Shown: piece by piece, positions 35,414-49,614 of the stretch
How the letters are laid out: every line of letters begins with the position of its first letter
Position numbering within the stretch: the first letter of the stretch is position 1
Source: an uncultured Parafilimonas sp.
GTDB taxonomy: Bacteria; Bacteroidota; Bacteroidia; Chitinophagales; Chitinophagaceae
Reading direction: 5' to 3'
Assembly (NCBI GenBank): GCA_903882935.1
Contig: CAIRZB010000012.1
Span: 62,001 to 126,000, forward strand
DNA length: 64,000 nt
The notes under the pieces: model-generated
The model's database searches: none
The model's input: the letters and a program-made list of their open reading frames with translations, nothing else
What the model was told of the DNA's origin: nothing
Program-made: the position numbers and the translations under genes

Positions 35414-36637
35414 ATGAAACTGAAATTGCTATTAACGTCAGCAGTGTTTCTACTTTTTTGCTTCGCCGCCTCTGCACAGGAGGACACCTCTTTAGCAAAC
35501 GTGTATTTCGTGAAAAGTAAGTTCTACCTTTTACCTGAAGGAAAGGACACGTTGAAAGCATTTATCGACCGGCATAAAAACGACCGCCACTTATGGGTAG
35601 TTGCCCGTTGCGACAAATGGGGCGGCAATACTTACAACGACTGGCTTTCCATCCAACGTGCCAACACTGTTACCAATTTTTTAATTGCCAATGGTTTTCC
35701 GAAAGAAAATATTGACACTATAAGAGGGTACGGTAAGCGTAGACAATTGGCCATTAATGGCTCACCTAAAATAGTGGATGATAAAAACAGGGTGGCCACT
35801 ATTACAGGCTCGTTTGCTGTTGTACAGCAACTGATTGAAACAAAAGACAGGGTGCCTGACCAATTTGCCGTTAAACAAAGGCCAGCGCATATTGATACCA
35901 GTTACATTAGGGACACTATCTATTTGAAGATGCCCTATGCCCCAGAGCTGTTGGTTACCAACAAGTTTCCGCACAAGGGTGATATCTTGAAAACGACCAC
36001 AGATTTCTTTATACAGAACGATTCTCCTTTCCTGTCAAAGAAACTGTACGTGGCGTCTGAAACAATGGAAGAGCCTAGGCCAGCAGAAGTTGCTGTTGCG
36101 CCTGCACCAGCGCCAACTCCTGCTCCTGTACAAGCACCGCCAACACCAACACCAGCCCCTGTTGTAAAAACAACCACAGCGCCACCTGCCGCTGCTGAGG
36201 TTGCTGACAATAGCGATGCTGATGAGGTTGGTAGGCAAGTAAAGGAACATTTGCAAAATGGCAAAATTGGTGAAAGCCTGATTATAAGGGGTATTAACTT
36301 TGACTTTGGCTATCACAGGATAGTTAAGAAAAGCAAAATTCAATTAGAAGCGGTTGTATATGCCATGACGCAAATACCTACCCTGAAATTAGAAATCCAA
36401 GGGCATATTTGCTGCTGGCCATTAGGGCAGGAAGGTTTTGACAGAGATACTAAAGAATACAACCTTTCTTTCAACAGGGCCAAAGAGGTGTTTGATTATT
36501 TGGTTAAAGCCGGTATTGCCGCAGACCGCCTTACCTACAATGGTTATGGCATGAAGCGCCCAATGGTTTTTCCTGAAAAAAGCAAAGACGACGAGTATAA
36601 AAACCGTAGGGTTGAGTTTAAAATAGTTAGCAAATAA
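35414..36637 (+). CDS. OmpA-family outer membrane/periplasmic protein
   Basis: ATG 35414 starts a signal peptide (MKLKLLLTSAVFLLFCFAASAQ). The 407-residue protein has two OmpA-like regions. A first one (about 28-150, RWVVARCDKWGG-like and NDWLSIQRANTVTNFLIANGFPKENI) is followed by a Pro/Ala/Thr-rich linker of (PAP)n type at about 220-255. The C-terminal OmpA domain (IIRGINFDFGYHRI, GHICCWPLGQEGFDRD, YNLSFNRAKEVFDYLVKAGI, YKNRRVEFKI) binds peptidoglycan in the family. No beta-barrel domain is present. A 12-bp palindrome follows the gene. Confidence 0.9.
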   Translation: MKLKLLLTSAVFLLFCFAASAQEDTSLANVYFVKSKFYLLPEGKDTLKAFIDRHKNDRHLWVVARCDKWGGNTYNDWLSIQRANTVTNFLIANGFPKENIDTIRGYGKRRQLAINGSPKIVDDKNRVATITGSFAVVQQLIETKDRVPDQFAVKQRPAHIDTSYIRDTIYLKMPYAPELLVTNKFPHKGDILKTTTDFFIQNDSPFLSKKLYVASETMEEPRPAEVAVAPAPAPTPAPVQAPPTPTPAPVVKTTTAPPAAAEVADNSDADEVGRQVKEHLQNGKIGESLIIRGINFDFGYHRIVKKSKIQLEAVVYAMTQIPTLKLEIQGHICCWPLGQEGFDRDTKEYNLSFNRAKEVFDYLVKAGIAADRLTYNGYGMKRPMVFPEKSKDDEYKNRRVEFKIVSK

Positions 36638-36665: not shown

Positions 36666-36697
36666 ACGGGCCGCCTATTTTACATTAGGCGGCCCGT
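36666..36697. terminator. Perfect 12-bp palindrome after the OmpA gene
   Basis: ACGGGCCGCCTA (36666-36677) pairs perfectly with TAGGCGGCCCGT (36686-36697). No T-run follows, so it is a weak intrinsic terminator or an mRNA 3'-end stabiliser. Confidence 0.6.
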
Positions 36698-36778: not shown

Positions 36779-36809
36779 TTTGTTGCGTATTGCAATGTGC
36801 CTATATTTG
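36779..36809 (+). promoter_or_regulatory. Consensus Bacteroidota promoter of the aromatic operon
   Basis: TTTG at 36779-36782, exactly 19 bases, then TATATTTG at 36802-36809. Both boxes and the spacing fit the TTTG-N19-TAnnTTTG consensus. Transcription would start around 36814-36816, only a few bases before the leader ORF start at 36818, so the leader mRNA is predicted to have almost no 5' UTR. Confidence 0.75.
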
Positions 36810-36817
36810 ACACCGAA

Positions 36818-36910
36818 ATGAACAAAGCAAATACATACAGCTATTTTTTTTACTTTTTCTTTTATTACTTTTTTACCAAAGTAACCGGGGTTGTATTTGC
36901 CAAAGCGTAA
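36818..36910 (+). CDS. pheL: Phe/Tyr leader peptide of the aromatic operon attenuator
   Basis: A 30-codon ORF that begins MNKANTYS and then has eleven consecutive aromatic codons (YFFYFFFYYFF, codons 9-19 at 36842-36874), ending with VVFAKA and TAA. Of 30 residues, eight are Phe and five Tyr. Its stop is 23 bases before an intrinsic terminator and 90 bases before the prephenate dehydratase gene. Composition, length and position are those of a leader peptide for transcription attenuation: scarcity of charged tRNA-Phe or tRNA-Tyr would stall the ribosome in the run. Mixed Phe and Tyr codons suit an operon that includes both pheA and tyrA. The symbol is given by analogy. Confidence 0.88.
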   Translation: MNKANTYSYFFYFFFYYFFTKVTGVVFAKA

Positions 36911-36964
36911 CAAACACAAATAATCAACATACAGTCCCGGTCTAACAGGCCGGGACTTTTTTTT
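36884..36964 (+). promoter_or_regulatory. Transcription attenuator: anti-terminator segment and terminator hairpin
   Basis: The terminator is AGTCCCGGTC (36933-36942), loop TAACA, GGCCGGGACT (36948-36957), continuing as eight T (to 36964). The segment ACCGGGG (36884-36890), inside the 3' part of the leader ORF, can pair with TCCCGGT (36935-36941) of the terminator's 5' arm (six Watson-Crick pairs and one G-U). A ribosome stalled in the aromatic run leaves this segment free, so the anti-terminator can form. A ribosome reaching the stop at 36908 covers it and the terminator folds. Pairings are read directly from sequence; the regulatory behaviour is inferred from the classical his/phe model. 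Confidence 0.85.
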
Positions 36965-36999
36965 GCCCCTGTGCAATACACAAGGGCAGCAAAAACAAC

Positions 37000-37914
37000 A
37001 TGATGGGTAAAAGCACAACAGCACAGGTTAGCACCAAAGCAAGCGCCACAGCGGCGGGCGGCATTGCCATACAAGGTTTTGAGGGTTGTTTTCACCAAGT
37101 GGCCGCCAGGCAGTACTTTGGCAAAGACGTAGACGTGATTACCTGCGGCACATTTAGGGAGGTTATAAAAAAGGCACTTAACAAAAAGGAAAGTGCCGGT
37201 GCCGTAATGGCCATCGAAAACTCCATAGCAGGCAGTATTTTGCCCAACTATACCCTGCTGCAAAACAGCGGTTTAAAAATTACAGGCGAAGTATACCTGC
37301 CTATAAAACAGCACTTGCTGGCCAACCCCGGCGTAAAGCTGGAAGACATAAAGGAAGTACACAGCCACCACATGGCTATACAGCAGTGCATGCAGTATTT
37401 AACCAAGTATAACTGGAAGCATGTTGAAACAGAAGACACTGCATTAAGCGCTAAACATATTCACCAACATAAAAGCAAACATATTGCCGGCATAGCAGGC
37501 AAACTTGCCGCCGATTTGTTTGAGCTGGAGATACTTGCCCCCAACATACACACCATGAAAAACAACTACACCCGTTTTTTGGTGCTGCAAAGGGAAGAAG
37601 TGGCAGTACAGGCCGAGGGTGCCGACAAAGCCTCGGTTAATTTTCATACCGACCACTCAAGGGGCAGCCTGGCAAGGGTATTAACAACCATTGCTGAAGG
37701 CGGTATAAACCTTAGCAAGCTGCAAAGTTTCCCCATTGCGGGCACCAATTTTAAATATAGTTTTCATGCAGATATGGAGTTTGATGATTTGGCTGTGTTT
37801 AACCAGGTGATTAATGCCATAAAACCCTTAACCGAGGAGGTAAAGGTGTATGGCATTTATAGGAACGGGAAAGTTGAACCCCCATTGCCCCCATCCCCTA
37901 AAGGGGGGCAATAA
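37000..37914 (+). CDS. pheA: Prephenate dehydratase
   Basis: A monofunctional prephenate dehydratase without an N-terminal chorismate mutase (304 residues; two ATGs at 37000 and 37003). The catalytic domain shows IQGFEGCFHQVAARQYFG, AVMAIENSIAGSI and NNYTRFLVLQRE (TRF motif with catalytic Thr). The ACT domain has the regulatory segments HSRGSLARVLTTIAEGGINLSKLQSFP (GALV and ESRP equivalents), so Phe feedback is expected. It makes phenylpyruvate. The last eight residues (PPSPKGGQ) are encoded by a CCCCTAAAGGGG repeat, meaning the stop has been placed inside a dispersed element. First gene after the attenuator. Confidence 0.96.
   Translation: MMGKSTTAQVSTKASATAAGGIAIQGFEGCFHQVAARQYFGKDVDVITCGTFREVIKKALNKKESAGAVMAIENSIAGSILPNYTLLQNSGLKITGEVYLPIKQHLLANPGVKLEDIKEVHSHHMAIQQCMQYLTKYNWKHVETEDTALSAKHIHQHKSKHIAGIAGKLAADLFELEILAPNIHTMKNNYTRFLVLQREEVAVQAEGADKASVNFHTDHSRGSLARVLTTIAEGGINLSKLQSFPIAGTNFKYSFHADMEFDDLAVFNQVINAIKPLTEEVKVYGIYRNGKVEPPLPPSPKGGQ
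37877..37911. repeat. CCCCTAAAGGGG dispersed palindrome at the pheA 3' end
   Basis: CCCCATCCCCTAAAGGGGGG lies in the last codons of pheA. It is the first copy in a series spread along the aromatic cluster. Confidence 0.7.
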
Positions 37915-38025: not shown

Positions 38026-38048
38026 CGAAAATGCGAAAAAAGAAATGT

Positions 38049-39248
38049 ATGATAACAACGGCAACACGTTTGGACGGCATTGGCGAATATTATTTCTCCC
38101 AAAAATTGCGGGAGATTGAGGGGCTTAACAAACAGGGCAAAAACATCATCAATCTTGGTATTGGCAGCCCCGACCTGCCGCCGCACCCCGACGTGATTAA
38201 AGTGTTGCAGGAGGAAAGCGCAAAGCCCAATGTGCATGCCTACCAAAGCTACAAAGGCTCGCAGGTGCTGCGCCAGGCATTTGCCCACTGGTACAAACAA
38301 TGGTATAACGTGCAACTGGATGCAGACACGGAAATATTGCCTTTAATCGGCAGTAAGGAAGGCATCATGCACATTTGCATGACCTACTTAAACGAAGGCG
38401 ATATTGTGCTGGTACCCAACCCAGGCTACCCCACTTACAGCAGCGCGGCCAAACTTGCAGGTGGTGCTATAATGCATTACGAACTGAAGGAAGAAAACAA
38501 CTGGCTGCCCGACTTCAACGCGTTGGATGACCAACTCGCGAGGGTTAAAAGCCTCCCTAGCGGGGAGGTTTGGAGGGGGCCTGCCAAGCTGATGTTTGTA
38601 AACTACCCGCAAATGCCCACTGGGCAGCTGCCTTCGGTGGAGATGTACCAGCAACTGGTGGCTTTTGCAAAAAAGCACAACCTATTGGTGGTGCACGACA
38701 ACCCCTACAGTTTTATTTTGAACGACAACCCCATGAGTCTGTTAGCTGTGGAAGGAGCAAAGGATGTAGTGATTGAGTTGAACTCCCTAAGCAAATCGCA
38801 AAACATGGCGGGCTGGCGCGTGGGTGTTTTATGCGGCGCAAAGCAGCGTATTGACGAAGTATTACGGTTTAAAAGTAACATGGACAGCGGCATGTTCCTG
38901 CCCCTGCAACTGGCGGCAGCCAAGGCTTTGGGCCTTGGCAAGGATTGGTACGACAGTGTAAACGAAGTATACAAGGCAAGGCGGGAAAAAGTGTACGAGT
39001 TGCTGGATGTGCTGGGCTGTGTGTATTCAAAACAACAGGCAGGCATGTTTATGTGGGCTAAAATACCTGCGGGATACAAAGACGGTTATGCGCTAAGTGA
39101 CGAGGTGTTGTATAACAGCAATGTGTTTATAACACCTGGCGGCATATTTGGCAGCGCGGGTGAAAAATACATTCGGGTAAGCCTTTGCGGCAGTGTGGAA
39201 AGGTTTGCGGAGGCGATAAAAAGAATAGCACACCCCCCAACCCCCTAA
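38049..39248 (+). CDS. Class I aminotransferase (aromatic operon)
   Basis: A fold type I PLP aminotransferase: INLGIGSPDLPPHPDVIKVL, LIGSKEGIMHI, LVPNPGYPTYSSAAKLAGG, VVHDNPYSFI, the PLP lysine in ELNSLSKSQNMAGWRVG, and GSAGEKYIRVSLCGS. ATG 38049 (MITTATRLDGIGEYYFS) fits homologues; an in-frame ATG at 38031 is the alternative. Similar enzymes are annotated aspartate or LL-diaminopimelate aminotransferase. Placed between pheA and tyrA, it probably transaminates phenylpyruvate, hydroxyphenylpyruvate or prephenate. Residues around 168-180 (SLPSGEVWRGP) are encoded by a G/C-rich repeat inserted in frame. Confidence 0.92.
   Translation: MITTATRLDGIGEYYFSQKLREIEGLNKQGKNIINLGIGSPDLPPHPDVIKVLQEESAKPNVHAYQSYKGSQVLRQAFAHWYKQWYNVQLDADTEILPLIGSKEGIMHICMTYLNEGDIVLVPNPGYPTYSSAAKLAGGAIMHYELKEENNWLPDFNALDDQLARVKSLPSGEVWRGPAKLMFVNYPQMPTGQLPSVEMYQQLVAFAKKHNLLVVHDNPYSFILNDNPMSLLAVEGAKDVVIELNSLSKSQNMAGWRVGVLCGAKQRIDEVLRFKSNMDSGMFLPLQLAAAKALGLGKDWYDSVNEVYKARREKVYELLDVLGCVYSKQQAGMFMWAKIPAGYKDGYALSDEVLYNSNVFITPGGIFGSAGEKYIRVSLCGSVERFAEAIKRIAHPPTP
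38551..38583. repeat. Repeat inserted in frame in the aminotransferase gene
   Basis: GCCTCCCTAGCGGGGAGG then TTTGGAGGGGGCC: CCTCCC-TAGC-GGGGAGG hairpin with the GG-rich tail seen at 39231, 44143 and 48580. It adds about 11 residues to the enzyme without shifting the frame. Confidence 0.65.
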
Positions 39249-39307: not shown

Positions 39308-40207
39308 ATGGATGACGTTAAAAATAACACGGATTTGGAAGCCCCCTTTAGTGGGTTTGGGGGCACCCTCGCCATCATCGGCGTGGGCTTAATAAGCGGC
39401 TCGTTTGCATTAGCGTTAAAGGATAAGGGCTATGCAAAACATGTTATAGGTGTTAGCCGTACCAAGGCCAGCGAGAAAAAAGCCCTAGAACTGGGCTTGA
39501 TTGACGAGGCGTTGCCCTTGGAAGAGGCCGTGCGCAAAAGCGATTTTATTTATGTGGCCATACCTGTTGACGCTACTATACCGACGATGCAGCGGATTAT
39601 GGACTTGGTGACAGACAAACAAATTGTTGCAGATGCGGGCAGTACAAAATTTGCGTTGTGCGATGCGTTGAAAAACCACACGATGCGCAACCGTTTTGTG
39701 GCCACGCACCCCATGTGGGGCACGGAATACAGCGGGCCCGATGCGGCTGTAAAGAACGCCTTTGTAGGCCGTGCTTGTGTTATTTGCGAGAAGGAAAAAT
39801 CAAACCCGGGGGCTGTTGCACTGGTTGAACATATTTACCGGCAGTTGGGCATGAATATTATTTACATGGATGCCCTTAACCACGATGTGCATGCCGCGTA
39901 CGTAAGCCATATATCGCACATTACTTCGTTTGCGTTGGCCAACACGGTGTTGGAAAAGGAAAAGGAAGAAAACACGATTTTTGAGCTGGCAGGCGGTGGT
40001 TTTGAAAGCACTGTGCGCCTCGCGAAAAGCAGCCCCGCCATGTGGGCACCCATCTTTATGCAAAACCGAGAGAACGTGCTGGATGTGTTGAACGAGCATA
40101 TAACCCAATTACGCAAGTTTAAAGCCTCCCTGGAGAAAGAGAACATGGATTATTTATACGAACTGATGGAGAATGCGAATAAAATAAGGAAGGTGTTGGA
40201 TAAGTAG
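39308..40207 (+). CDS. tyrA: Prephenate dehydrogenase
   Basis: A 299-residue NAD(P)-dependent TyrA: nucleotide-binding LAIIGVGLISGSFALAL, then IGVSRTKASEKKALELGLID, YVAIPVDATIPTM, VADAGSTKFALCDAL, VATHPMWGTEYSGPDAA (catalytic His), and HDVHAAYVSHISHITSFAL. It converts prephenate to 4-hydroxyphenylpyruvate. No ACT or chorismate mutase domain is fused. Residues 12-20 (EAPFSGFGG) are encoded by another copy of the dispersed repeat, between the start codon and the Rossmann fold, so the N-terminus has been extended by it. Confidence 0.95.
   Translation: MDDVKNNTDLEAPFSGFGGTLAIIGVGLISGSFALALKDKGYAKHVIGVSRTKASEKKALELGLIDEALPLEEAVRKSDFIYVAIPVDATIPTMQRIMDLVTDKQIVADAGSTKFALCDALKNHTMRNRFVATHPMWGTEYSGPDAAVKNAFVGRACVICEKEKSNPGAVALVEHIYRQLGMNIIYMDALNHDVHAAYVSHISHITSFALANTVLEKEKEENTIFELAGGGFESTVRLAKSSPAMWAPIFMQNRENVLDVLNEHITQLRKFKASLEKENMDYLYELMENANKIRKVLDK
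39339..39364. repeat. Repeat copy inside the tyrA N-terminus
   Basis: AGCCCCCTTTAGTGGGTTTG then GGGGC: the CCCCTTTAGnGGG-TT-GGGGG pattern in frame after tyrA codon 11. Confidence 0.65.
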
Positions 40208-42645: not shown

Positions 42646-42698
42646 CAAGGTTCATCGGGTTTATTGAGAGCGTACTCTAAAGCAAAGTGTTTTTTCGC

Positions 42699-42785
42699 CG
42701 TTGTTGGTGTTTTCACCAACAACGAAAATAAAATTGCATAATAAAAAAGTGATTTGATACTTTGTTGGTGAAAATACCAACAAAG
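42699..42785. other. Two related hairpins upstream of the DAHP synthase gene
   Basis: CGTTGTTGGTG-TTTT-CACCAACAACG (42699-42724, 11-bp perfect stem) and CTTTGTTGGT-GAAAAT-ACCAACAAAG (42760-42785, 10-bp perfect stem). Both carry TTGTTGGT and its complement, so each arm could also pair across the two hairpins. Neither has a T-run. They lie 104 bases before the DAHP synthase start. Confidence 0.6.
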
Positions 42786-42888
42786 GCGGAAAAGGCGAAA
42801 ATGCACAAAACAAAGAACGTAGGATTTTTTATACAATAACAAACCATATGAAATGCTTCCGCAAGAGGAAGTTTGGAGGATGACTTTT

Positions 42889-43980
42889 ATGCAGGTAACT
42901 GAAACAGTAAGCGCCAAAGAACTGGTGCAGGAAAAATGGAACAAACGTCCGTTGATTATCGCTGGTCCCTGTAGCGCAGAGACCGAAGAGCAGGTGATGG
43001 AAACCGCTGTGCAGCTACAAAAAACCGGCCAGGTTGATATAATGCGTGCCGGTATTTGGAAACCGCGTACCCGCCCCGGCAGCTTTGAAGGCATCGGTAC
43101 AAAAGGACTGCCTTGGCTGCAAACTGCTAAAAAAGTAACAGGTATACCCTGGGCTGTTGAAGTGGCTACCGCCAAACAGGTAGAAGATGCTTTGCATTTT
43201 GACGTGGATGTGCTTTGGATAGGCGCCCGTACAACGGTAAACCCATTTAGTGTGCAAGAAGTGGCAGACGCGCTTCGTGGCGTGGATGTACCCGTGTTGA
43301 TTAAAAACCCCATCAATCCCGATATAGAACTTTGGATAGGCGCAGTGGAGCGCGTGGCGAAGGCCGGTATTAAACAAATTGGTTTAATACACCGTGGCTT
43401 TAGCAGCTACGGTAACACCGAGTACCGCAATGCACCCATGTGGCACCTGGCCATAGAAATGAAGCGCCGCAACCCGGGGTTGATGATGATTAACGACCCA
43501 TCGCACATTTGCGGCCGTAGGGATATATTGCTGGATGTTGCCCAAAAAGCCATCGATTTGGACTTTGACGGTTTGATTATTGAAAGCCATATTGACCCCG
43601 ACAAAGCATGGAGTGATGCCAAACAACAAGTTACACCTGCGCGTTTGGCAGAAATGCTGAGCAGCATTAAATGGCGTAAGGAAGACGTTGCTTCACCAGA
43701 ATACCATGCCGCTTTGGAAAAACTGCGCCAGCAGATTGACCAGTTGGATGACGAGCTGCTGCAAGTGGTGGGCCAGCGTATGAAAATATCTGAAAAGATA
43801 GGCCAATACAAAAAGGATAATAACATTACCATTTTGCAAACCAACCGTTGGAACGATATTTTGGAAAGGGCTTTCTTGAAAGGCGACAAGCTTGACCTTA
43901 GCAAGGAGTTTATAACCAAGTATTTTGATGCCATGCACATGGAAAGCATCAACCACCAAAACAGGGTGTTGAATTCATAG
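42889..43980 (+). CDS. Bifunctional DAHP synthase / chorismate mutase
   Basis: The start at ATG 42889 (MQVTETVSAKEL) has GGAGG nine bases upstream; ATG 42880 and 42853 are in frame but less well placed. The first 265 residues are a KDPG-type (AroG/KdsA-like, type I-beta) DAHP synthase: IIAGPCSAETEEQV, MRAGIWKPRTRPGSFEG, DVLWIGARTTVNPF, GLIHRGFSSYGNT, NDPSHICGRRD and IIESHIDPDKAWSDAKQQVTP. The last 85 residues are an AroQ chorismate mutase: LRQQIDQLDDELLQVVGQRMKISEKIGQYK. The fusion joins the first step of the shikimate pathway to the branch-point enzyme, which lets prephenate or chorismate control entry. Typical for Bacteroidota. Confidence 0.95.
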   Translation: MQVTETVSAKELVQEKWNKRPLIIAGPCSAETEEQVMETAVQLQKTGQVDIMRAGIWKPRTRPGSFEGIGTKGLPWLQTAKKVTGIPWAVEVATAKQVEDALHFDVDVLWIGARTTVNPFSVQEVADALRGVDVPVLIKNPINPDIELWIGAVERVAKAGIKQIGLIHRGFSSYGNTEYRNAPMWHLAIEMKRRNPGLMMINDPSHICGRRDILLDVAQKAIDLDFDGLIIESHIDPDKAWSDAKQQVTPARLAEMLSSIKWRKEDVASPEYHAALEKLRQQIDQLDDELLQVVGQRMKISEKIGQYKKDNNITILQTNRWNDILERAFLKGDKLDLSKEFITKYFDAMHMESINHQNRVLNS

Positions 43981-45683: not shown

Positions 45684-46730
45684 ATGACGAAAAAGGTACT
45701 GAATTTTAGCACTGCCACCACCACCTTTTATTTTGATGCGGCTTTCGACCAGCTTGAAACGTTGGTGCCCAAAGAGAGTACCTTCATTATAACAGATGAG
45801 CATGTGTTTGCCAAAAACACAAAAAAATTCAAGGCATGGAAAACCATTGTAGTGCCTGCCGGGGAGCAGCATAAACACCAAGGCACGGTAGACAGTATTA
45901 TAGAAAAGTTGGTTACCTACGGTGCAGACAGAAAGTCGTACATAGTGGGTGTGGGCGGCGGTGTGGTTACCGATATGGCGGGGTATGTTGCCGGCATTTA
46001 CATGCGCGGCGTAAAGTTTGGTTTTGTGCCAACCAGCATACTGGCCATGGTTGATGCTTCAATAGGTGGCAAAAACGGTGTTGATGTGGGCATTTACAAA
46101 AACATGGTGGGGCTAATACGCCAACCCGAGTTTTTATTGTACGACTACAGCTTGTTAAAAACATTGCCTAAAGAAGAATGGATAAACGGTTTTGCCGAAA
46201 TTATAAAACATGCCTGCATTAAAGATGCAGCCATGTTTAAGCTACTAGCTGAGCATAAACCGGTCGATTTTCAGAAAGATAAAGTATTGCTCAACAAACT
46301 TATACAGCGGAATGCCCTGCTGAAAAGCAAAGTAGTGCAAGGCGATGAGTTTGAACAGGGGGAGCGCAAACTGCTAAATTTTGGCCACACGCTCGGCCAT
46401 GCCATTGAAAATACTTACCAGTTGCCCCACGGGCATGCGGTAGCCATTGGTATGGTAGCAGCTGCATACATCAGTGCCGACCTGCTTAAACTAAAGGGGG
46501 CGGAAAAAATAGCCTCGCTAATAGTTAAATACGGCCTGCCCGCATTTTTTAAGTTTGATGCCGACAAAGCGGTAGAAACAATGCGCGCTGACAAAAAAAG
46601 AATTAACAACGATATACACTACGTGTTGCTTGAAAAAATTGGTAAAGGTGTGGTAAAACCGCTGGCCATTGACGATATTAAGCCGGTTATAAAGCACCTG
46701 GCACAAAGCAAAACCCCAAACACCACGTAA
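45684..46730 (+). CDS. aroB: 3-Dehydroquinate synthase
   Basis: A 348-residue NAD- and Zn-dependent enzyme: TFIITDEHVFA, VPAGEQHKH, the NAD loop VGVGGGVVTDMAGYVAGIYMRG, VPTSILAMVDASIGGKNGVD, ELGFAE-equivalent WINGFAEIIKHACI, and the Zn His in LLNFGHTLGHAIE and LPHGHAVAIGMVAA. It converts DAHP to 3-dehydroquinate, the second shikimate step. Length is close to the family norm. Confidence 0.96.
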   Translation: MTKKVLNFSTATTTFYFDAAFDQLETLVPKESTFIITDEHVFAKNTKKFKAWKTIVVPAGEQHKHQGTVDSIIEKLVTYGADRKSYIVGVGGGVVTDMAGYVAGIYMRGVKFGFVPTSILAMVDASIGGKNGVDVGIYKNMVGLIRQPEFLLYDYSLLKTLPKEEWINGFAEIIKHACIKDAAMFKLLAEHKPVDFQKDKVLLNKLIQRNALLKSKVVQGDEFEQGERKLLNFGHTLGHAIENTYQLPHGHAVAIGMVAAAYISADLLKLKGAEKIASLIVKYGLPAFFKFDADKAVETMRADKKRINNDIHYVLLEKIGKGVVKPLAIDDIKPVIKHLAQSKTPNTT

Positions 46731-46762
46731 GGGCACCACCTTAGAGGCATAAAACACATGGC

Positions 46763-47104
46763 ATGGCCACAAAAACTTTACACCGGCCTGTAGGCCCAGA
46801 AGAACTTAAAAAAATTGAAGAAGCGGGGTGGACGAAGTTTCCGCTGAGATTGCTACAACAGCCCATTTTCTATCCCGTATTGAATGAGGAATATGCCATC
46901 CAAATTGCCCGGGGCTGGAATGTACCTGCCAGCGGCAGCGGCTTTGTAACAAAGTTTGAGGTAAACGCCGAGTATCTGTCAAAATTCGAGAGGCAAGTGG
47001 TGGACAACGAGGTACATGAAGAGTTATGGGTGCCGGCCGAGGAATTAGAAGAACTCAACAACAATATTGTTGGCCTTATTGAGATAACCAAAGAATTTCA
47101 TTAG
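46763..47104 (+). CDS. Small ADP-ribosylation/crystallin J1-like protein
   Basis: A 113-residue protein: TLHRPVGPEELKKIEEAGW, FPLRLLQQPIFYPVLNEEYA, GSGFVTKFEVNAEYLSKFERQ and HEELWVPAEELEELNNNIVG. Similar proteins are commonly labelled ADP-ribosylation/crystallin J1, but they are much shorter than true ADP-ribosylhydrolases and lack their Asp-rich metal motif, so no enzyme function should be assumed. It is packed between aroB (32 bases) and aroA (4 bases). Confidence 0.75.
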   Translation: MATKTLHRPVGPEELKKIEEAGWTKFPLRLLQQPIFYPVLNEEYAIQIARGWNVPASGSGFVTKFEVNAEYLSKFERQVVDNEVHEELWVPAEELEELNNNIVGLIEITKEFH

Positions 47105-47108
47105 CTAT

Positions 47109-48464
47109 ATGCAAGTTTCCATAACACCGTCGGCCATACAGGGCGAAATTTTTGCGGCAGCGTCCAAAAGCTCCATGCAGCGGGCATGTGCAGCTTCATT
47201 GGTTAAAAAAGGGGTGAGTATTGTGCACAATCCCGGCACATCCAACGACGACAAGGCCGCCATCGGCGTTATTAAAGCGATGGGTGCGACGGTAGAACAG
47301 TTGGGTGACGGCTCCTTCAAAATAAATTCAAAAGGCTTTCTCAATACATCTGCAGACGGGTTAACCGTAAATTGTGGGGAGAGCGGCCTCGGTATACGTA
47401 TGTTTACCCCGGTAATATCGTTAAACCAAGGCACCGTAACCATTAACGGAGAGGGTAGCTTGCTTACCCGCCCGATGGATTTTTTTGACGAAGTGCTGCC
47501 GCAGTTGGGTGTGCAAATAACCTCCAATGCAGGCAAACTCCCTTTAAGATTAAACGGGCCTTTGCTACCCAAGGATATTACGATTGACGGCTCATTGAGT
47601 TCGCAGTTTTTAACTGGCTTGTTGCTGGCGTACGCAGCGGCTGGCGCAAGTGGTGTTGGCATAAAGGTGATTGACCTTAAAAGCAAACCCTATGTTGACC
47701 TTACGCTGAAAGTGATGCGTGATTTTGGTTTACAGGTTCCCGAGAACAGGAATTATGAGGAATTTTATTTCGGAAGTCGTGAAACGGGAGACGAGAATCG
47801 TGAAAAGGCAAACGAGAAACGTGAAACGGGAATCGTGAATGATGGAACATTGGTGACGGATTATACTGTTGAAGGTGATTGGAGTGGAGGCGCTTTCCTG
47901 TTGGTGGCTGGTGCCATAGCGGGTGATATTACCGTGAAAGGGCTGGATACATCTTCCACGCAGGCTGATAAAGCGGTTTTGCAGGCGTTGCAGGATTGCG
48001 GCTGCGCATTACAAATAGGAGACGGGGTGATTAACATCGGCCCCGGTAATTTAACGGCCTTCAGGTTTGATGCAACGGATTGTCCTGACTTGTTTCCCCC
48101 GCTGGTTGCACTGGCCGCATACTGCATTGGCACAACGGTAATAAAAGGTGTGCAACGCCTAACTCACAAGGAAAGCAACCGCGCATTAACCCTGCAGGAT
48201 GAATTTGGCAAATTGGGTATTGACATATTGTTGGAGGATGACGAGATGCTTATAATCGGCGGTACAGGCGTTAAGTCTGCCCAGGTACATTCCCGGCACG
48301 ACCACCGCATAGCCATGGCTTGCGCGGTTGCTGCCCTAAAGGCGGATGGGGATGTGCTGATTGATGAAGCGCAGGCCATCAATAAATCGTACCCCGATTT
48401 TTACAAGCACATTGAACGTTTGGGGGCAGTGGTTGTTTTGAGCGAAGTGGAACTGCATTCATGA
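47109..48464 (+). CDS. aroA: 5-Enolpyruvylshikimate-3-phosphate synthase with repeat-derived insertion
   Basis: EPSP synthase of 451 residues: ASKSSMQRACAASL (shikimate-phosphate/PEP Lys20), NPGTSNDDKAAIG, NCGESGLGIRMFTPV, DGSLSSQFLTGLLLA, YTVEGDWSGGAFLLVAGA, ATDCPDLFPPLVALAAY, LTHKESNRA and HSRHDHRIAMACAVA. All expected active-site segments are present. Between a conserved YEEFYF and the YTVEGDWSGG strand it carries about 23 extra residues rich in Arg, Glu and Asn (GSRETGDENREKANEK...). These are encoded by a direct-repeat element also seen near 58.4 kb. The insert lies in a surface loop position, so activity is probably kept. Confidence 0.94.
   Translation: MQVSITPSAIQGEIFAAASKSSMQRACAASLVKKGVSIVHNPGTSNDDKAAIGVIKAMGATVEQLGDGSFKINSKGFLNTSADGLTVNCGESGLGIRMFTPVISLNQGTVTINGEGSLLTRPMDFFDEVLPQLGVQITSNAGKLPLRLNGPLLPKDITIDGSLSSQFLTGLLLAYAAAGASGVGIKVIDLKSKPYVDLTLKVMRDFGLQVPENRNYEEFYFGSRETGDENREKANEKRETGIVNDGTLVTDYTVEGDWSGGAFLLVAGAIAGDITVKGLDTSSTQADKAVLQALQDCGCALQIGDGVINIGPGNLTAFRFDATDCPDLFPPLVALAAYCIGTTVIKGVQRLTHKESNRALTLQDEFGKLGIDILLEDDEMLIIGGTGVKSAQVHSRHDHRIAMACAVAALKADGDVLIDEAQAINKSYPDFYKHIERLGAVVVLSEVELHS
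47775..47843. repeat. In-frame repeat insertion in aroA
   Basis: The core CGTGAAACGGGA occurs twice (47778 and 47820), separated by GAGAATCGTGAAAAGGC and followed by ATCGTGAA. The complement of this wording (TCCCGTTTCACGATTCCCG) is present at 58369-58387. The insert is a multiple of three and has no stop in the aroA frame. Confidence 0.7.
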
Positions 48465-48579
48465 GGAAAATAAAATTGCAATAGTTGAAAATGCTAAAGT
48501 CGCATGTTAGATTTCATAAGTTTACAGCGATATCAGCCATTATAACTTCGTTTTACAATAAAAATAGTAGGTTTTTAAT

Positions 48580-48602
48580 CTCCCCTTTAGGGGTTGGGGG
48601 TA
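48580..48602. repeat. CCCCTTTAGGGG palindrome before aroC
   Basis: CTCCCCTTTAGGGGTTGGGG plus GTA, ending five bases before the aroC start. Same wording as the copy at 44143. Confidence 0.7.
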
Positions 48603-48606
48603 CAGT

Positions 48607-49614
48607 ATGAACAGTTTTGGACGCATATTCAAGGTAAACATTTTCGGTGAATCGCACGGCGAAAGCGCAGGCGTTAATATTGACGGCATACCCGCGGGCT
48701 TGCCATTAACGGTGGATGATTTTTTGGCAGACATAGAACGCCGCAAAGGTGGCACCCAAAAAGGTACTACCCCCCGGCAGGAAAGCGACCTGCCCATTTT
48801 TAAAAGCGGTGTGTTTAACAACACAACCACCGGCGCGCCATTAACGATACTTTTTGAGAATAACAATACCCGTAGTGGCGACTACCAAAAGCAGCGCGCC
48901 GTGCCAAGGCCGGGCCACGCTGATTTTGTGGCCAGCAAAAAATTTGGCGGTTTTGAAGATTATAGGGGCGGCGGCCATTTTAGCGGCAGGCTAACCGTAT
49001 GTCTGGTGGCTGTAGGGGTGATAGCCAAAAAAATGCTCGCTTACAGCGGTATTAACATAGCAGCCGCCATTTTGGAGATTGGCGGGGAACCCGACCTTGA
49101 AAAAGGCCTGCAAAAAGCCATTGATGCCAAGGATACTATCGGCGGCATTGTGGAGTGCCGTGTAAACGGACTGCCCCTGGGTTTGGGCGAGCCTTTTTTT
49201 GACAGTGCTGAATCATTACTCGCCCATGCAGCCTTTGCCATACCTGCCGTGCGCGGTGTGGAATTTGGCACCGGCTTTGCGGCTGCCAAAATGTTTGGCA
49301 CGCAGCACAACGATGCCATCGCTGATATAAGCGGCAAGACTGTAACGAACCATGCGGGTGGTGTTGTGGGCGGCATAACCAACGGCAACGAATTGGTATA
49401 CCGCCTTGCCATAAAGCCTACCTCTAGCACACCCAAGGACCAGTTTACCCTTAACTGGGAAACCGGCGAAATGGAAACTTTCTCCGTTAAAGGCAGGCAC
49501 GACCTTTGCATAGCACTGCGGGTACCAGTGGTGATGGAGGCGGTAACCGCCATGGTGCTGGCAGATTTAATGATGCTGGAACAAAGGATACCAAGGGTGA
49601 TCGCGGCCCAATAG
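48607..49614 (+). CDS. aroC: Chorismate synthase
   Basis: A 335-residue FMN-dependent enzyme: NSFGRIFKVNIFGESHGES, GIPAGLPL, RRKGGTQKGTTPRQESD-like segment, RPGHADFVASKKFG, YRGGGHFSGRLT, FGTGFAAAKMFGTQHND, HAGGVVGGITNGNEL and KGRHDLCIALRVPVVMEAVTAMVLAD. It makes chorismate and closes the set of shikimate genes here; aroD, aroE and aroK are not in the window. Slightly short of the usual 350-360 residues, with no missing motif. Confidence 0.96.
   Translation: MNSFGRIFKVNIFGESHGESAGVNIDGIPAGLPLTVDDFLADIERRKGGTQKGTTPRQESDLPIFKSGVFNNTTTGAPLTILFENNNTRSGDYQKQRAVPRPGHADFVASKKFGGFEDYRGGGHFSGRLTVCLVAVGVIAKKMLAYSGINIAAAILEIGGEPDLEKGLQKAIDAKDTIGGIVECRVNGLPLGLGEPFFDSAESLLAHAAFAIPAVRGVEFGTGFAAAKMFGTQHNDAIADISGKTVTNHAGGVVGGITNGNELVYRLAIKPTSSTPKDQFTLNWETGEMETFSVKGRHDLCIALRVPVVMEAVTAMVLADLMMLEQRIPRVIAAQ

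Follow-up and report, generated by a model that had tools for sequence, protein, structure and literature searches.

A probable leader-peptide attenuator for phenylalanine and tyrosine upstream of pheA in Chitinophagaceae and other Bacteroidota

Ribosome-mediated attenuation is a textbook mechanism in enteric bacteria. To our knowledge, attenuation has hardly been characterised in the Bacteroidota, whose mRNAs, as far as we know, lack Shine-Dalgarno sequences. The leader of pheL-pheA in Escherichia coli (Rfam Phe_leader, RF01859) has in common with the locus reported here an aromatic leader peptide, alternative 1:2, 2:3 and 3:4 helices, and a terminator ahead of pheA. For the same gene in the same phylum, PMC9723704 describes a 5′ element that precedes pheA in Flavobacterium psychrophilum and is conserved within the Flavobacteriaceae, together with clues to attenuation (leader peptides) ahead of amino-acid operons; in the passages considered here, the pheA element is presented without a peptide, dual sensing or a structure. 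The original prediction called such leaders little described in the phylum, which is a fair statement apart from these Flavobacterium reports. Neither a dual Phe/Tyr leader nor a Chitinophaga attenuator was found in the papers searched, and an earlier prediction may be contained in the comparative genomics of Lopatovskaya et al. 2010.

The locus lies in a window of 64,000 nucleotides from an uncultured Parafilimonas sp., and the coordinates of its features within that window are collected in Table 1. ORF, helices, conservation and covariation all agree with the Phe/Tyr leader-peptide attenuator that had been predicted ahead of pheA, an aminotransferase gene and tyrA, and it is very likely that this leader acts as a ribosome-mediated transcription attenuator sensing charged tRNA-Phe and tRNA-Tyr. 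Although it resembles the E. coli leader in its presumed working, it is not classed in RF01859, because it scores 26.9 bits against that model and the gathering cut-off is 55.

Table 1. Features of the predicted attenuator and of the genes downstream (positions in the window)
Feature	Positions	Strand	Remarks
Candidate -33 element, TTTG	36779..36782	+	19 nt ahead of the -7 box; sigma-ABfr consensus
-7 box TATATTTG (TAnnTTTG)	36802..36809	+	Predicted transcription start ~36814, 5′ UTR ~4 nt
Leader ORF MNKANTYSYFFYFFFYYFFTKVTGVVFAKA	36818..36910	+	30 codons; ATG 36818, TAA 36908-36910; kept in relatives
Segment 1 GCAAATACA	36827..36835	+	Codons 4-6; partner 36892-36900; covariation
Aromatic codon run, proposed sensor	36842..36874	+	Codons 9-19, 4 Tyr and 7 Phe
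Segment 2, within the 3′ end of the ORF	36884..36900	+	36892-36900 with segment 1 or 36884-36899 with segment 3
Segment 3, antiterminator partner	36926..36941	+	36933-36941 doubles as terminator 5′ arm
Intrinsic terminator, stem and T8	36933..36964	+	36933-36943 / 36947-36957 (segment 4); covariation
pheA, prephenate dehydratase	37000..37914	+	NCBIfam
Class I/II aminotransferase, LL-diaminopimelate aminotransferase-like	38031..39248	+	NCBIfam (class I); after pheA in 66/68 relatives
tyrA, prephenate dehydrogenase	39308..40207	+	NCBIfam
DAHP synthase-chorismate mutase (DAHPS-CM)	42853..43980	+	NCBIfam; downstream in 64/68 loci
aroB 45684-46730, aroA 47109-48464, aroC 48607-49614	45684..49614	+	NCBIfam

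An OmpA-like gene ends at 36637 and pheA starts at 37000; in between sits the leader ORF, whose coordinates and translation bear out the original description of 30 codons with eleven successive Phe/Tyr codons. The run reads YFFYFFFYYFF, is preceded two codons earlier by an extra Tyr7, and is the only stretch of at least seven F/Y residues in six frames of 158.5 kb of the window genome. Directly 3′ of the OmpA-like gene, a perfect 12-bp hairpin occupies 36666-36697 (ACGGGCCGCCTA / TAGGCGGCCCGT), with no T run. Downstream, NCBIfam agrees with the predicted order of pheA, aminotransferase and tyrA; the aminotransferase is probably an aromatic aminotransferase. Between tyrA and the DAHPS/aroB/aroA/aroC part of the cluster lie a gap of 299 bp and a gene for a helicase, and attenuator control possibly extends past tyrA to DAHPS-CM and the later aro genes. 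Just upstream of the DAHPS-CM gene, the palindromes TTGTTGGTGTTTTCACCAACAA and TTGTTGGTGAAAATACCAACAA, related in sequence and separated by 61 nt (42690-42793), jointly form a 32-nt inverted repeat that is 91% complementary; the pair may serve as an operator or as an RNA control element of its own.

As in leaders of the trp/his/phe type, an upstream ORF is rich in codons for the product, a terminator lies between this ORF and the first gene, the 5′ arm of the terminator is also part of the antiterminator, which reaches into the end of the ORF, and a 1:2 helix overlaps the antiterminator. The intrinsic terminator with eight T expected after the ORF was found as an 11-bp stem (36933-36957) with the loop AAC and T8 at 36957-36964 (-18.7 kcal/mol). 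A 7-bp pairing of 36884-36890 with 36935-36941 had also been proposed; it exists, but is the core of an antiterminator in which 36884-36896 pairs with 36929-36941 over 13 bp, including two G-U pairs, and which runs on past a one-base bulge for three more base pairs to 36899/36926 (13-16 bp overall). Helix 1:2, absent from the original prediction, comprises 9 bp. Since the layout is the classical one of three helices (1:2, 2:3, 3:4), with a 1:2 helix that exists and covaries, the description of a compact two-state design was wrong. The folding optimum is 2:3 before segment 4 exists, and 1:2 plus 3:4 for the full leader RNA without a ribosome.

These structures suggest the following course of events, in which transcription start, ribosome stalling and the change in readthrough are steps that we infer. 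RNA polymerase would start some 4 nt upstream of the leader AUG, and translation of the leader would therefore begin at, or almost at, the 5′ end of the mRNA. With ample Phe and Tyr, the ribosome would clear the eleven aromatic codons, reach the stop codon at 36908 and cover or disrupt segment 2, so that the 3:4 terminator could fold ahead of pheA. With Phe or Tyr scarce, the ribosome would stall at the start of the run and mask segment 1, leaving segment 2 to pair with segment 3; no terminator would form, and pheA, the aminotransferase gene and tyrA, perhaps also the later aro genes, would be transcribed. Without translation, 1:2 and 3:4 would form and lead to termination. One point speaks against this scheme, as a ribosome at the stop codon, with the usual footprints, would barely reach 36884-36890 to block 2:3.

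Conservation was examined at 90 pheA loci, 30 from a PheA search in the family and order of the window and 60 upstream regions from the family. An F/Y-dense leader ORF was present in 86 of the 90 and a terminator in 85. A search of named genomes, in which the close relatives were Chitinophagaceae (Niastella, Filimonas, Chitinophaga, Sediminibacterium), recovered the leader at 75 of 77 loci with upstream sequence, among them Chitinophagaceae, Hymenobacter, Alistipes and Flavobacterium. In a phylum-wide draw, 37 of 39 loci with a close PheA (mostly >40% identical) carried the leader, and none of 26 with a distant PheA did. A covariance model built on 47 leaders usually gave one strong match per genome, just upstream of pheA wherever the place of pheA was listed.

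Covariation among these sequences supports each of the three helices, 1:2 more weakly than 2:3 and 3:4. Cognate 2:3 duplexes had a mean of -21.0 kcal/mol, as compared to -17.3 kcal/mol for swapped partners, and cognate 1:2 duplexes -10.5 as compared to -8.7 kcal/mol; in both tests, 0 of 2000 permutations were as strong. Of the three leader classes, each gave a significant result for 2:3 and two did so for 1:2; in the largest class, cognate 1:2 pairing was no better than swapped, which makes 1:2 the weakest helix. Eleven leaders with divergent terminators lack the usual CCCGG, and their cognate match also exceeded that of swapped partners (0/2000), as segment 2 has in most of them changed to match (e.g. 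CCGGAGG/CCTCCGG and CCAGG/CCTGG). For each of 2:3, 3:4 and 1:2, pair counts in the alignment were higher than in shuffles and in slid controls, with kinship only partly controlled. The comparison with relatives proposed at the outset, for conservation of the aromatic run and covariation of the stems, was thus borne out for the run and for all helices.

Phe codons arise easily in a T-rich stretch, and the ORF might be a chance product of such a stretch beside an unrelated, ordinary intergenic terminator. There is next to no likelihood of this: the leader is conserved, the gaps in its coding part are codon-sized (124 of 146 are multiples of 3, which is not so in the 3′ non-coding part), and segment 2 within the ORF covaries with the terminator arm. 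Chance was accordingly rejected on the ground of conservation. It is also very improbable, if slightly less so, that a T-box, riboswitch or protein-binding attenuator carries the ORF as a passenger. T-boxes or TRAP control aromatic operons in some phyla, but what is conserved here is chiefly the ORF together with the three helices, and the window and four relatives matched no curated Rfam family at its cut-off, on which the T-box or riboswitch reading was dropped.

Within the preferred reading of a ribosome-mediated attenuator, a sensor for Phe only, with Tyr codons incidental because Phe and Tyr codons alike are rich in T and lie close to a U-rich run, deserves somewhat more weight and is still unlikely. 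E. coli pheL uses Phe codons, and most leaders have more Phe than Tyr (502 to 310). Yet at least two Tyr and at least three Phe codons were present in all 85 leaders of the family and order set, and the run translates to F/Y in frame 0 only (89%), the other frames being rich in T/I/S/L. A mixed run suits an operon that makes both amino acids, as pheA is followed by the aminotransferase gene in 66 of 68 loci and by tyrA in 66 of the 68 with enough downstream sequence. Loci whose operon no longer holds both halves of the pathway bear on the same question. A genome without pheA by profile search (G094) carries the leader MTQYSKYYYWYYLNRITG directly before tyrA, with 6 Tyr, 1 Trp and 0 Phe codons; a second genome without pheA (G100) has the order leader, aminotransferase, tyrA and a leader with 5 Tyr and 2 Phe, and a third with the same order has pheA on a different contig and a leader with 5 Tyr and 3 Phe (G075). 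Conversely, in a metagenome-assembled genome labelled Verrucomicrobiota (L241), pheA is followed by DAHPS-CM and the leader has 7 Phe and 0 Tyr, at a contig edge, and a pheA-DAHPS-aroB-aroA-aroC locus without tyrA (L207) has 7 Phe and 2 Tyr. The median Tyr share is 0.375 in 56 operons that contain pheA as well as tyrA; compared with these, the loci with tyrA and without pheA in the operon (n=3) gave P = 0.002 and the loci with pheA and without tyrA (n=2) P = 0.010, several of these five loci being metagenome-assembled or at contig ends. G381, with a mixed leader and no tyrA by tblastn, had been taken for a counterexample and was set aside, as a divergent prephenate dehydrogenase ends the same gene row. 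These few cases support the view that the codon mix follows operon content, Tyr-rich without pheA and Phe-rich without tyrA, and with it the claim that both amino acids are sensed; since samples are small and L241 lies at a contig edge, they are support rather than proof.

The putative promoter points to an unusual start of translation. The sigma-ABfr consensus has TTTG at about -33, and 5′ UTRs under 10 nt make up 3.7% in Bacteroides thetaiotaomicron (PMC7366714); for Flavobacterium, PMC9723704 places the -7 box at -12 to -5 and counts only 5.5% leaderless mRNAs. Among 86 relatives, the end of TAnnTTTG lies 4-10 nt from the leader ATG in 63, with a sharp peak at 7. In a control of ~358 kb from two of these genomes, with rough gene starts taken as the longest ORFs, ~8 of 38 boxes lay equally near a gene start (Fisher P about 5e-12). 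From a spacing of 4-10 nt and a box at -12 to -5, a 5′ UTR of 0-6 nt is predicted, and the Chitinophagaceae sensor ORF is, judging by this promoter spacing, probably nearly leaderless. The close spacing is specific to the order of the window, as leaders outside it, where a box exists, mostly have it 17-29 nt from the ATG. His-rich leader ORFs were also seen upstream of hisG, in the window's genome (L271, G000:C70; MHIHHRHHFLYNR) and at L258-L270; in several hisG leaders of the family a -7 box precedes the start by 4-10 nt, akin to the Phe/Tyr leaders, and they look like a second type of attenuator with similar near-leaderless spacing. No leader was found in the upstream regions of ilvB, perhaps because other genes precede ilvB in its operon.

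Two F/Y leaders stand in tandem before pheA in Chitinophaga (L224, L225, L229, L231) and Hymenobacter (L230, L233, L234, L245, L254), and also in another family of the window's order (L027), mostly with a terminator for each. The first tandem leader of Chitinophaga includes a Trp. At L093 (G467), L096 (G332) and L117/L315 (G381), the leader is found with a PheA 43-56% identical to that of the window; these genomes share only the phylum with it, and their sampled family members mostly carry a distant PheA. Horizontal transfer of the operon together with its attenuator is possible at these loci. At L341 (G298), pheA lies beside the helicase gene, and adjacent aminotransferase, tyrA and leader were not found; break-up of the operon may thus entail loss of the attenuator. 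We incline, by a modest margin, to a broader picture of a Bacteroidota-specific attenuator that would be an ancestral sensor of Phe or Tyr, leaderless in Chitinophagaceae, present as a tandem pair in Chitinophaga and Hymenobacter, and re-tuned in its codons when pheA or tyrA leaves, with a leaderless start that may be general for the amino-acid attenuators of the family, his included.

A single conserved element for a joint Phe/Tyr operon would make two-amino-acid sensing and leaderless ribosome-polymerase coupling directly testable, with natural gene losses serving as specificity mutants, and would allow a regulator and a small gene to be annotated across very many genomes. Compared with E. 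coli pheL-pheA, which reads Phe only, the leader in the window mixes Phe and Tyr in a longer ORF, has no Shine-Dalgarno sequence and a predicted 5′ UTR near zero, and would govern pheA, the aminotransferase gene and tyrA jointly. Leader mRNAs that begin at or near the AUG are described for trpL of Sinorhizobium meliloti (PMC7298713) and ilvB of Corynebacterium glutamicum (PMC11857589), each in another phylum and for another amino acid, whereas the leaderless start in the window is predicted from promoter spacing only. The predicted mechanism is the known one of a classical attenuator; probably new is its distinctive lineage, with a putative sensor of two amino acids whose codons track operon content and with what is likely a leaderless start in the family of the window.
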